Shown one piece after another: positions 58,051 through 61,969 of a stretch of DNA of 64,000 nucleotides (the stretch's first letter is position 1; every line of letters starts with the position of its first letter). The notes under the pieces were generated by a model. The model worked only from the letters and a program-made list of their open reading frames with translations. It was not told the DNA's origin and did no database searches. Location: positions 1 through 64,000 of the forward strand of contig JAHEFR010000016.1 in NCBI GenBank assembly GCA_024640085.1. Reading direction: 5' to 3'. This DNA is from Gammaproteobacteria bacterium (GTDB lineage: Bacteria > Pseudomonadota > Gammaproteobacteria > Steroidobacterales > XN24). The position numbers and the translations under genes were made by a program.

Positions 58051-60519
58051 TCAGAAGAGGGGTTCGCCGGATTCCACCGGCTCGAACGGAGAACGTGCGT
58101 CCTCCTCGCCCGCCTCCGGGACGTGATCGACGCGGAACGTCTCGAAGATCGCCGAGCCGTCATCGGCTCTCGCCAGCAGACCCGTCTCCGGTGAGATACG
58201 GACGGTCACCAGGCCTGTGGGCTTCGGCGGGATATGTTCACTTGCGCCCTTCAGGGCCTCGCCCATGAAATCGATCCATATGGGGAGAGCGGTCCGGCTG
58301 CCTTCCTCACGAGCGCCGAGGGACTGTTCCTGGTCGAACCCGACCCAGACGGTGGCCACGAGGTCGGCGTTGAAACCGCTGAACCATGCGTCACGCCGAT
58401 CGTTGGTCGTGCCGGTCTTGCCTGACAGGTCCGAACGCCCGAGACTCATCGCGCGCCGCCCTGTGCCCCTGCGGATGACGTCCCGCATCATGTCGGCGAT
58501 CAGGAACGCGTTCTGTCGCGTGATCACAGGGTCCGCATATTCGATTTCGACCAGGTATTGCTCCTCATCGCCCTCCTCGTCCGGCCCGGGCACGTTGGTC
58601 TGTGCAGGCTCTTCGAGGGCCTCGTCCTCGCAGATGGCGCACGCTATCAACGGGTCTGCCTCCTCGATCAGCTCGCCCTGGCTGTTGCGAACACTCTGGA
58701 TGAAGTAGGTGGGTACCCGGTAACCGCCGTTCGCGAATACCGTGTACGCGTCGGCGATATCGAGGGGTGCGAGGCTGATGCTGCCGAGCGCCAGGGAGAG
58801 GTCTCGCGGCATGGCGGCGGCAGGGATGCCGAACCGCCGGATGTGTTCGATTGCGGGGCGGACGCCCATCTGCCTGAGGACCCGCACGGAGACCAGATTA
58901 CGCGAGCGGACCAGCGCTTCCCTAAGGCGCGTGGGGCCATAAAAACGCTGGCTGTAATTCTCCGGTCGCCAGGTCCCCTCCAGAGTATCGTCCTCGAAGA
59001 CCACCGGGGCGTCGTTGACGATCGAGGCAGCCGTGAACCCGTTCTCCAGCGCCGCCGAGTAGATGAAGGGTTTGAAGGAGGAACCCGGCTGCCGGCGGGC
59101 CTGGGTGACCCGGTTGTACTTGCTGACCAGAAAGTCGAAACCGCCAGAGAGAGCGACCACTGCTCCATCAGAGGGGTCGAGGGCGACAATTGCGCTCTGT
59201 ACGTTCGGTGTCTGGCCCAGTGTCCAGCCTCCATCCGCCGTGCGGATCACTTCGATGACGTCGCCGGGCGCCAGAACATCCGTCACGGTTTCCGGGGCCG
59301 GCCCCCGGAGATCAACCTTCACATACGGACGCGCCCAGGCGATCGCGGCGAGTTCCATGGGAATCGACTGGCCGTCCTGCAAGGCCACGGTGGCTCCGTT
59401 CTCGTCTATCGAGGTGACGAGACCGACTGTCATTCCCGGCGCTGCCCGGAAGCCTGCCAACACCGCTTCCGGGTCGACCGCTTCATCGGGCCACTGCACC
59501 CGGGCCAGAGGGCCCCGGTAGCCATGCCGGCGATCGTAATCGATCAGTCCCTGCCGCAGGGCCGCCACGGCGGCTCTCTGCAGTCGACTGTCGACTGTTG
59601 TCGTAACGACGTATCCGGCGGTGTACGCATCGGTCCCGTACTTGTCCAGCATGTACTGTCTCGCCATTTCGCCGACGTAGGGCGCCTCCACCTCGACTGT
59701 CGGTCCGTGGAGGAAGGACTTCATGGGGGTGGCCGACGCGCGCTCGACGGCCGCCGGATCCACGTAACCGGTCTCCAGCATGCGTCTCAGGACGTAGGCC
59801 CGTCGGGCGGTCGCGCGCTCCGGGCTGGTGACCGGATTGTCACGGGACGGGGCCTTGGGCAGGCCGGCAATGGTCGCGATCTCGGCCAGGGACAGGCGGT
59901 CGACGGTCTTGCCGAAATAGACTTCCGCGGCAGCCCCCACCCCATAGGCCCGTTGCCCGAGGAAGATCTTGTTCAGGTAAAGCGTAAAAATCTCGTTCTT
60001 GCTGAGTTCACGCTCGATCCGGAGGGCCAGAAAAATCTCCCGGACCTTGCGTGAGATGGTCTTCTCCCGGGTGAGGAAGAAGTTTCTCGCGACTTGCATA
60101 GTGATCGTACCGCCCCCCTGAGTACGTTCGCCGGTGACCGCCAAAGCGAATGCGGCGCGTACCAAGCCCTGGTAGTCGACCCCGGGGTGATCGTAGAAGC
60201 GATCGTCCTCCGCCGCGAGAAAGGCGTGGATGACCTGGTCGGGGAATTCCGAAAAGCCAAGCGGGATCCTGCGTTGCTCCCCGTACTCCGCCATGAGGCG
60301 GCCGTCCCGGGTGTAGATTCTGAGCGGGACCTGGAGCTGGATGTCCTTCAAAGACTCGACACCGGGCAATTCCGGCGCGACGTAGTAATACGCCCCGACG
60401 GAGGCCACACCGACGATGGATACGAGCGCGGCGATGAGTATTGCAGCGATATAAAGGGCGCGGAGCAGGAGTGTCATCGAAAAACGTGAGGTTCGTCTTG
60501 CCTTGCCCACAGCGGGCAT
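58051..60519 (-). CDS. mrcA: Penicillin-binding protein 1A
   Basis: A class A PBP of ~822 residues, with glycosyltransferase and transpeptidase activities for peptidoglycan. A cytoplasmic start and one membrane anchor (YIAAILIAALVSIVGVASVG) are followed by the GT51 domain (AAEDDRFYDHPGVD, GGGTITMQVARN, TLYLNKIFLGQRAYG). The transpeptidase motifs are PGSSFKPFIY (SxxK) and GKTGTTNDRRDAWF. ATG 60519 follows GGTGG and is favoured; ATG 60477 is possible and the longer frame to 60678 would cross the riboswitch. It is divergent from pilMNOPQ, the usual gammaproteobacterial arrangement. Confidence 0.95.
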   Translation of the reverse strand: MPAVGKARRTSRFSMTLLLRALYIAAILIAALVSIVGVASVGAYYYVAPELPGVESLKDIQLQVPLRIYTRDGRLMAEYGEQRRIPLGFSEFPDQVIHAFLAAEDDRFYDHPGVDYQGLVRAAFALAVTGERTQGGGTITMQVARNFFLTREKTISRKVREIFLALRIERELSKNEIFTLYLNKIFLGQRAYGVGAAAEVYFGKTVDRLSLAEIATIAGLPKAPSRDNPVTSPERATARRAYVLRRMLETGYVDPAAVERASATPMKSFLHGPTVEVEAPYVGEMARQYMLDKYGTDAYTAGYVVTTTVDSRLQRAAVAALRQGLIDYDRRHGYRGPLARVQWPDEAVDPEAVLAGFRAAPGMTVGLVTSIDENGATVALQDGQSIPMELAAIAWARPYVKVDLRGPAPETVTDVLAPGDVIEVIRTADGGWTLGQTPNVQSAIVALDPSDGAVVALSGGFDFLVSKYNRVTQARRQPGSSFKPFIYSAALENGFTAASIVNDAPVVFEDDTLEGTWRPENYSQRFYGPTRLREALVRSRNLVSVRVLRQMGVRPAIEHIRRFGIPAAAMPRDLSLALGSISLAPLDIADAYTVFANGGYRVPTYFIQSVRNSQGELIEEADPLIACAICEDEALEEPAQTNVPGPDEEGDEEQYLVEIEYADPVITRQNAFLIADMMRDVIRRGTGRRAMSLGRSDLSGKTGTTNDRRDAWFSGFNADLVATVWVGFDQEQSLGAREEGSRTALPIWIDFMGEALKGASEHIPPKPTGLVTVRISPETGLLARADDGSAIFETFRVDHVPEAGEEDARSPFEPVESGEPLF

Positions 60520-60526
60520 GCATATT
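60498..60526 (+). promoter_or_regulatory. Candidate promoter of the riboswitch leader
   Basis: -35 TTGCCT (60498-60503) and -10 CATATT (60521-60526) are 17 nt apart. Transcription would start near 60533, just at the first bases of the aptamer. The element overlaps the beginning of mrcA on the other strand. Confidence 0.45.
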
Positions 60527-60531
60527 ACCAC

Positions 60532-60620
60532 CGAACGAAAAGGGCAAACCTGTCGAAAGACGGGGACGCAAAGCCACCGATCTAAGGGAGGACTCCTACG
60601 ATGGCGGGGCTGCCGGATCC
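60532..60620 (+). ncRNA. Cyclic di-GMP-I (GEMM-I) riboswitch
   Basis: The core matches the GEMM-I aptamer (Rfam RF01051). AGGGCAAACC (60541-60550) is followed by a GNRA hairpin CCTGTC-GAAA-GACGGG (60549-60564), then GGGACGCAAAGCC (60563-60575). The second arm contains a tetraloop-receptor-like TCTAAG...TACGATGG (60581-60604) and closes with GGGGCTGCCGG. GGC at 60543-60545 pairs with GCC at 60573-60575 at the base of P2. It is on the plus strand, ~290 nt upstream of pilM, so c-di-GMP probably controls the pilMNOPQ transcript. Confidence 0.9.
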
Positions 60621-60734
60621 AATATATTGGCTCCATCTGGAGTTGCGGCAGGGTACAACAACCATCGATCCGAGCCATGCAAACGCGACCGCTCGGGGGC
60701 GGTCCGAGATGTCACTGACGGCTGCTCCGGACCG
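60610..60734 (+). other. Leader with competing hairpins, possible expression platform
   Basis: CTGCCG at 60610-60615, inside the 3' strand of the aptamer, is complementary to CGGCAG at 60646-60651, so a mutually exclusive fold is possible. Between them are two small hairpins (CCAATATATTGG and CTCCATCTGGAG). Further on, GACCGC/GCGGTC (60687-60704) competes with CGGTCCG/CGGACCG (60700-60734). The remainder to 60907 is AT-rich (60811-60890) and has no credible gene. No T-tract terminator was found. Confidence 0.4.
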
Positions 60735-60907
60735 ACCACATCTCTCTTCGATAGCGACAAGGCATGCCCCCTCTTTGTTCCGGTGTTATCCGGACCGTGA
60801 ATGAGGTCACGTTTTATTTAACCAATAATTGCTATATAGATAATTGCATTAGTTAAGACATTATTCTATCTTTCGATGCCAAGCTGCGGACCTTAAAGGA
60901 AATTCAA

Positions 60908-61969
60908 GTGCTTCTCGCCAGGAAGAATCGGCCGCTGTTGGGACTTGACATAACGACGTCCTCCGTCAAGCTGATCGAGTTGAGCCGCAGCGGAGACCAG
61001 TATCGTGTCGAGTCCTATGCTGCGGAGGCCACGCCTCAGAACTCGGTCAATGAAAAGGCCGTCGTCGATCCGTCCTCCGTGGGCGAGGCCATTCGACGTG
61101 CGGTCAAGCGTTCAGGTGCCCGCAGCCGGGAGTGCGCTATCGCCATAAGCGGCGATGCGGCCATTACCAAGATCATCCAGATGCCTTCCACCCTCAACGA
61201 CAGTGAACTGGAAGGACAGGTGGAGTTGCAGGCTGATCAGTACATTCCCTTCCCGATGGACGAGGTCAGTTACGATTTCGAAGTCCTGGGACCCACCGAC
61301 CATGACCCTGACATGCAGGACGTCCTTCTCGTCGCGACGCGTACGGAGAACGTGGAACAGCGCCAGGCTGCCGTCGAGGCGGCTGGCATCAAGCCCCGGA
61401 TCGTCGACGTCGAGGCGTTTGCGCTGGAGGCCGCCTGCCGGCTTCTAAAGCACCAGATGCCTGATCAGGGGCAGGGACACAATGTGGCGGTGGTCGACTT
61501 CGGCGCAAGCAGTACCACCTTCAGCGTGCTGAGGGATCTCAAGGTCGTCTACACGCGCGATTTCGCGTTCGGCGGCCAGCAGCTCACTGAAGAAATCATG
61601 CGCACCTACGGGCTCTCGCTCGAAGATGCCGGCCGCGCAAAGAAGGAAGGCGGTCTGCCGAGCAATTATGAACCGGAAGTGCTCGATCCGTTTATCGACG
61701 ACATGACCCAACAGGTCAGCCGATCGCTGCAGTTCTTCCTCGCGTCCGGTAGCGGTCGCGAGCAACCGGACCAGATCCTCGTGTGCGGCGGATGCGCAAA
61801 TATCCCCGGTGTCGCAGACGTCATCGGCAGCCGGGTAGGCATACCCACCGAGGTCGGGAATCCTCTGGGCGACATGAAGTTGTCGTCCAGGGCGCGGTCG
61901 TCCGGTGTGATGAAAGACGCCACCGCTCTGCTGACCGCTTGTGGCCTTGCCCTGAGGAGCTTCGACTGA
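60908..61969 (+). CDS. pilM: Type IV pilus assembly protein PilM
   Basis: A 353-residue actin-like ATPase-fold protein on the cytoplasmic face of the pilus alignment complex, binding the N-terminus of PilN. Blocks are LGLDITTSSVKLIELSRSG at the start, VELQADQYIPFPMDEVSYDF, NVAVVDFGASSTTFSVL and QILVCGGCANIPG, the nucleotide-site motifs. The start is GTG 60908 behind AAAGGAAA. It is the first gene of pilMNOPQ, 1 nt before pilN. A riboswitch precedes it. Confidence 0.95.
   Translation: MLLARKNRPLLGLDITTSSVKLIELSRSGDQYRVESYAAEATPQNSVNEKAVVDPSSVGEAIRRAVKRSGARSRECAIAISGDAAITKIIQMPSTLNDSELEGQVELQADQYIPFPMDEVSYDFEVLGPTDHDPDMQDVLLVATRTENVEQRQAAVEAAGIKPRIVDVEAFALEAACRLLKHQMPDQGQGHNVAVVDFGASSTTFSVLRDLKVVYTRDFAFGGQQLTEEIMRTYGLSLEDAGRAKKEGGLPSNYEPEVLDPFIDDMTQQVSRSLQFFLASGSGREQPDQILVCGGCANIPGVADVIGSRVGIPTEVGNPLGDMKLSSRARSSGVMKDATALLTACGLALRSFD

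Follow-up and report, generated by a model that had tools for sequence, protein, structure and literature searches.

The surface life of bacteria with type IV pili involves cAMP and c-di-GMP together, mostly via proteins. Pilus genes can also be under a riboswitch, as in the case of Clostridioides difficile pilA1; this riboswitch belongs to class II of the c-di-GMP riboswitches, has a different fold from the element described here and occurs in a Gram-positive bacterium. The GEMM-Ib element of Geobacter metallireducens pilM is a studied cGAMP riboswitch, a compact ON-switch acting on transcription, whose competing hairpin serves as the terminator (PMC9262584). GEMM switches are located upstream of Geobacter pilMNOPQ (PMC8683041). 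The original prediction, made from the letters of this DNA, had held that no standard riboswitch was known at the pilM locus; the Geobacter switches contradict this. In Vibrio cholerae, the Vc1 c-di-GMP-I riboswitch and cAMP-CRP act on one gene, gbpA, and tfoY combines Vc2 with a second c-di-GMP input via a transcription factor (PMC11218506). The pilMNOPQ promoter of Pseudomonas aeruginosa is Vfr-dependent; a c-di-GMP riboswitch is absent from that account (PMC12533971).

The locus studied here is part of the window, the whole stretch of 64 kb of gammaproteobacterial DNA that was analysed. A c-di-GMP-I aptamer precedes pilMNOPQ, and the region between mrcA and pilM is best read as a two-input control region, with a promoter P1 gated by the aptamer and a CRP/Vfr-type promoter P2 downstream (probability about 0.68). 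The locus shares with G. metallireducens a GEMM-I fold in the pilM operon leader and a hairpin competing with the 3' strand of the aptamer. The differences are the specificity base, a G of the c-di-GMP type in place of cGAMP sensing; the hairpin, a terminator in Geobacter, which in the window is followed by no U-tract and does not qualify as an intrinsic terminator; the CRP-type promoter that follows; and the gammaproteobacterial host. GEMM switches thus precede pilM in two groups that are far apart and differ in ligand: it is cGAMP in Geobacter and is predicted to be c-di-GMP here. The likeness to gbpA, an adhesin gene and not a pilus machine, lies in the combination of a c-di-GMP-I riboswitch with cAMP-CRP. 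In tfoY, too, a riboswitch is joined by a further layer of control, but tfoY is a regulator gene with no CRP-type class II site shown. P. aeruginosa pilMNOPQ shares the control by a cAMP receptor. In a search of the open-licence literature, no description of a c-di-GMP-I riboswitch at a gammaproteobacterial pilM came up. With GEMM at pilM and c-di-GMP-I with cAMP-CRP both already known, the locus is a conserved instance with a two-promoter context, not a new kind.

The genes and the aptamer are arranged as follows.

58051 to 60478, minus strand: mrcA (PBP1A), divergent neighbour of pilM, probable start codon near 60478
60533 to 60617, plus strand: c-di-GMP-I (GEMM-I) aptamer
60895 to 60900, plus strand: pilM ribosome-binding site AAAGGA, read from the sequence, conserved
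60908 to 61969, plus strand: pilM, GTG start at 60908, TIGR01175 370 bits, PF11104
61971 to 62540, plus strand: pilN, PF05137
62534 to 63145, plus strand: pilO, PF04350
63142 to 63669, plus strand: pilP, PF04351
63669 to 64000, plus strand: 5' part of pilQ, a secretin of 732 aa that runs past the window end

The gene calls agree with the predicted divergent pair of mrcA and pilMNOPQ around the aptamer. In the list of open reading frames, the mrcA frame reaches 60678 through in-frame codons upstream of its likely start at about 60478. The distance of 290 nt from the aptamer end to pilM matches as well. Positions 60532-60907 had been described as one leader; this is correct, and the leader has two distinct parts, the riboswitch (60533 to about 60672) and a promoter region (60796-60872).

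RF01051 was the sole family at gathering threshold when the 64 kb window was searched with cmscan against all of Rfam. The GEMM-I call and the covariance-model check proposed for it were borne out by a full-length hit (model positions 1-87 complete, E 1.1e-15) of 86.4 bits, well over the gathering cut-off of 35 bits. A second model, R1, was built from an alignment of 32 aptamers, taken from this genome and from related ones, and gave 93.8 bits for the window copy. In this alignment, 15 of the 21 aptamer pairs covary with changes on both sides. Stems P2 and P3 are conserved and covarying, and a GAAA tetraloop is present in stem P2. The aptamer is a genuine GEMM-I riboswitch fold. The base at Vc2 position G20 (model position G11) steers the selectivity between c-di-GMP and cGAMP (PMC9262584). 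In the window it is G60543, and the G is invariant in all 32 aligned aptamers. G at this position is a selectivity factor and no hard filter; the predicted ligand is c-di-GMP, with cGAMP less favoured, and cGAMP specificity was set aside on the same base.

The R1 model was run over 80 pilM loci of public genomes and the window. Counts refer to the 77 pilM loci that have 430 nt or more of upstream sequence and to aptamer calls of at least 50 bits. The aptamer is present in 43 of the 77, always on the pilM strand, and usually ends 210-390 nt before pilM (155 nt in two loci; some start codons are approximate). On a PilM tree, its presence requires nine changes versus 26 after shuffling, and 42 of the 43 positive loci belong to a single large group (51 rows) that has weak support. 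The simple reading of this pattern is an early presence followed by repeated losses. Among six relatives within the window's family, three have the aptamer and three, all of one genus, do not. Repeated losses, together with decayed copies of the aptamer in L045, L068 and L092 at the corresponding position upstream of pilM, would also be expected of a decaying relic that is functionless now in this genome. This is highly improbable: the window copy is among the top scores, the stems of the family covary and promoter P1 is retained in place. L149 possibly carries another decayed aptamer before pilM, judged by eye only.

A candidate promoter lies directly upstream of the aptamer.

60498 to 60526, plus strand: promoter P1, TTGCCT (60498-60503), 17-nt spacer, CATATT (60521-60526), spacing conserved

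Its end is separated from the aptamer by 6 nt, and the expected transcript start at about 60532-60533 is the first aptamer base; the aptamer thus begins at a probable transcription start. The sigma-70-like consensus is TTGC..-N17-CATAkT, with the 17-nt spacer in most aptamer loci. P1-like elements occur in 37/43 aptamer loci versus 8/34 others (P=3e-8), and three of these eight, scored as lacking an aptamer, have decayed ones. Since it tracks the aptamer, we read promoter P1 as the riboswitch's own promoter. The same co-occurrence speaks against a reversed mrcA promoter, a candidate suggested by the palindromic core ATGCAT. A simple sigma-70 scan of the region reported zero promoters. Both promoters, P1 and P2, match the consensus weakly, which counts against the two-input reading.

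Two stretches separate the aptamer from the promoter region.

60610 to 60672, plus strand: putative switch hairpin, from position-specific pairing across loci and folds
60673 to 60795, plus strand: unconserved stretch with neither an intrinsic terminator nor a conserved reading frame

From model position 84 onwards, the 3' strand of aptamer stem P1 can pair with a stretch about 20-60 nt downstream. In the window, the arms are CTGCCG (60610-60615) with CGGCAG (60646-60651), or CGGATC (60614-60619) with GATCCG (60667-60672). A full 6-bp partner is present at the exact offset in 21 of the 43 loci, versus usually 0-6 (maximum 10) at other offsets and a mean of 8.0 (maximum 16, n=500) in a cross-locus control. 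The arms vary by lineage (CAGACC/GGTCTG, CGGCAC/GTGCCG, CGGTTC/GAACCG, CGAAGC/GCTTCG), so the pairing is kept and not the sequence. By taking the 3' strand of stem P1, the hairpin excludes this stem. This position-conserved competition is likely the switch.

In the window, the search for an intrinsic terminator from the aptamer to the operator found none, and the stretch 60673-60795 is unconserved even among the three closest loci; both count against the two-input reading. Candidates for an intrinsic terminator behind the switch hairpin were scattered and restricted to relatives. A small leader ORF was likewise dismissed: frames were seen by eye in some relatives, the stretch is unconserved and the frame is not kept in the closest loci. 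In the full-length fold, a segment at about 60769-60782 pairs with the 5' end of the aptamer and lowers its stability; no conservation of this pairing was seen in L039 or L040. The minimum free energy of the whole leader was not clearly better than that of shuffled sequences (z -1.37).

Promoter P1 and the aptamer could instead give rise to a short transcript with a regulatory or interfering role, which Rho would end before pilM and which would act on promoter P2 by polymerase passage or as a small RNA. The missing intrinsic terminator, the rapid divergence of the stretch preceding the operator and a mild excess of C over G past the hairpin (averaging +0.037, with controls at -0.014 and -0.019) agree with such a transcript. 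However, the C excess is weak, several loci lack it, and there is no conserved product. The signs of a Rho/rut site amount to this weak C excess, and a Rho/rut role is retained within this unlikely alternative to the two-input reading.

The promoter region near pilM comprises three elements.

60796 to 60811, plus strand: CRP/Vfr-type operator cGTGA-N6-TCACg, centre 60803.5, cGTGAATGAGGTCACg
60830 to 60838, plus strand: extended -10 TGcTATATA of promoter P2, expected start about 60845 from the -10, which places the operator at -41.5
60844 to 60872, plus strand: possible third promoter P3, TTGCAT-N17-TATCTT, in the window, L039, L040, L078 and L089, weak consensus

CRP class II promoters have an operator centred at about -41.5, together with a -10 element. 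Operator and extended -10 are arranged as in a CRP-activated class II promoter. GTGA-N6-TCAC occurs at -100 to -118 of pilM in 58 of the 77 loci, with an aptamer (32/43) as well as without (26/34). Spacers of 3-9 were searched at this place in the 77 loci and no alternative was found; it is always 6. Within 430 nt of pilM, the motif is present in 65/77 loci versus a shuffled mean of 0.18. The distance from the operator centre to TGnTA is identical in 54 of 59 loci, whether the aptamer is present or absent. The genome encodes a CRP/Vfr orthologue (NF008732, 315 bits over a cut-off of 266), for which Vfr is the closest solved protein in the PDB, and five class III cyclase domains.

The palindrome at 60796-60811, which has a U-rich tail, might also be taken as the intrinsic terminator of the riboswitch and not as an operator, and a simple scan did score a terminator-like site there (CGTGAATGAGGTCACG TTTTATTT). 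Its stem has only 5 bp, the spacer is exactly 6 in all 58 loci with the palindrome at that place, the -10 follows at a fixed distance, and palindrome and tail also occur in loci without an aptamer. A terminator as its main role was rejected on these grounds and is quite improbable, although the palindrome may have a double role as operator and terminator.

Given the conserved CRP-type class II promoter downstream of the aptamer, one or more pilM transcripts probably begin beyond the aptamer. Such a start had been named in the original prediction as evidence against its reading, and the conserved geometry makes it probable. The same promoter explains the leader that had been called unusually long; the 290 nt stand. 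A sole pilM promoter upstream of the aptamer, with the whole operon controlled by c-di-GMP via one 5' leader, would agree with aptamer, promoter P1 and pilM sharing one strand without an intervening gene. It is improbable in view of the operator and extended -10, which keep their fixed spacing also where aptamer and promoter P1 are absent. The claim that the whole pilus machine is under direct c-di-GMP control is accordingly doubtful, while the aptamer before pilMNOPQ holds. In the sister genomes G002, G005 and G006, the aptamer is missing and the operator is shifted by 44 nt. The arrangement is thus not essential, which counts against the two-input reading. At L144, L145 and L147, pilM loci from one genus of the same family and lacking the aptamer, GTGA-N6-TCAC is located 44 nt farther from pilM, about four helical turns, and no class II -10 accompanies it.

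In the two-input reading, promoter P1 (60498-60526) would start a transcript whose first nucleotides are the c-di-GMP-I aptamer. Binding of c-di-GMP would stabilise aptamer stem P1 and block the hairpin downstream, which uses the same 3' strand. The choice between stem and hairpin would decide whether the P1 transcript continues into pilM. Promoter P2, with its operator at -41.5, would produce pilM mRNA that lacks the aptamer. Since promoter P2 lies between aptamer and genes, c-di-GMP probably gates promoter P1 only and cAMP-CRP/Vfr drives promoter P2. Geobacter pilM and V. cholerae gbpA, taken as analogies, tip the balance slightly towards an ON-switch. Gating by termination via Rho or structured sites, in the ON direction, is suggested with low confidence. 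Doubtful, too, is an extension to a broad range of Gammaproteobacteria of two second messengers at two promoters, with c-di-GMP acting on promoter P1 through Rho or interference and no intrinsic terminator, and cAMP-CRP/Vfr on promoter P2. If true, the number of pilus machines would report both c-di-GMP and cAMP. The two signals appear to converge within a single 400-bp control region of the pilus-channel operon, lineage-wide.

Eight good c-di-GMP-I aptamers and a weak one occur in the genome, along with ten GGDEF domains, and the organism is thus an ordinary user of c-di-GMP riboswitches. Tandem c-di-GMP-I aptamers precede a Calx-beta domain protein on contig C5 of the host genome (L128, 1052-1135 and 1280-1365); they also exceed the threshold of the GGC subtype RF03167 (75.8 and 73.1 bits). 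More c-di-GMP-I aptamers in L129 (3949-4036 and 13875-13961, minus strand) and L130 (1178-1261) are located close before genes of large surface-type proteins; the genes that follow encode a DUF11 protein, a TPR operon and a protein with an HZS_alpha-like domain. In L131, a c-di-GMP-I aptamer at 869-954 precedes a plus-strand frame that is unclassified, resembles an M23 peptidase by eye and lies immediately upstream of secA. L133 has a weak, rearranged GEMM-like element at 523-597 (RF01051 44.4 bits; RF03167 48.9 bits, under its threshold), followed by a strong hairpin and a T-run.
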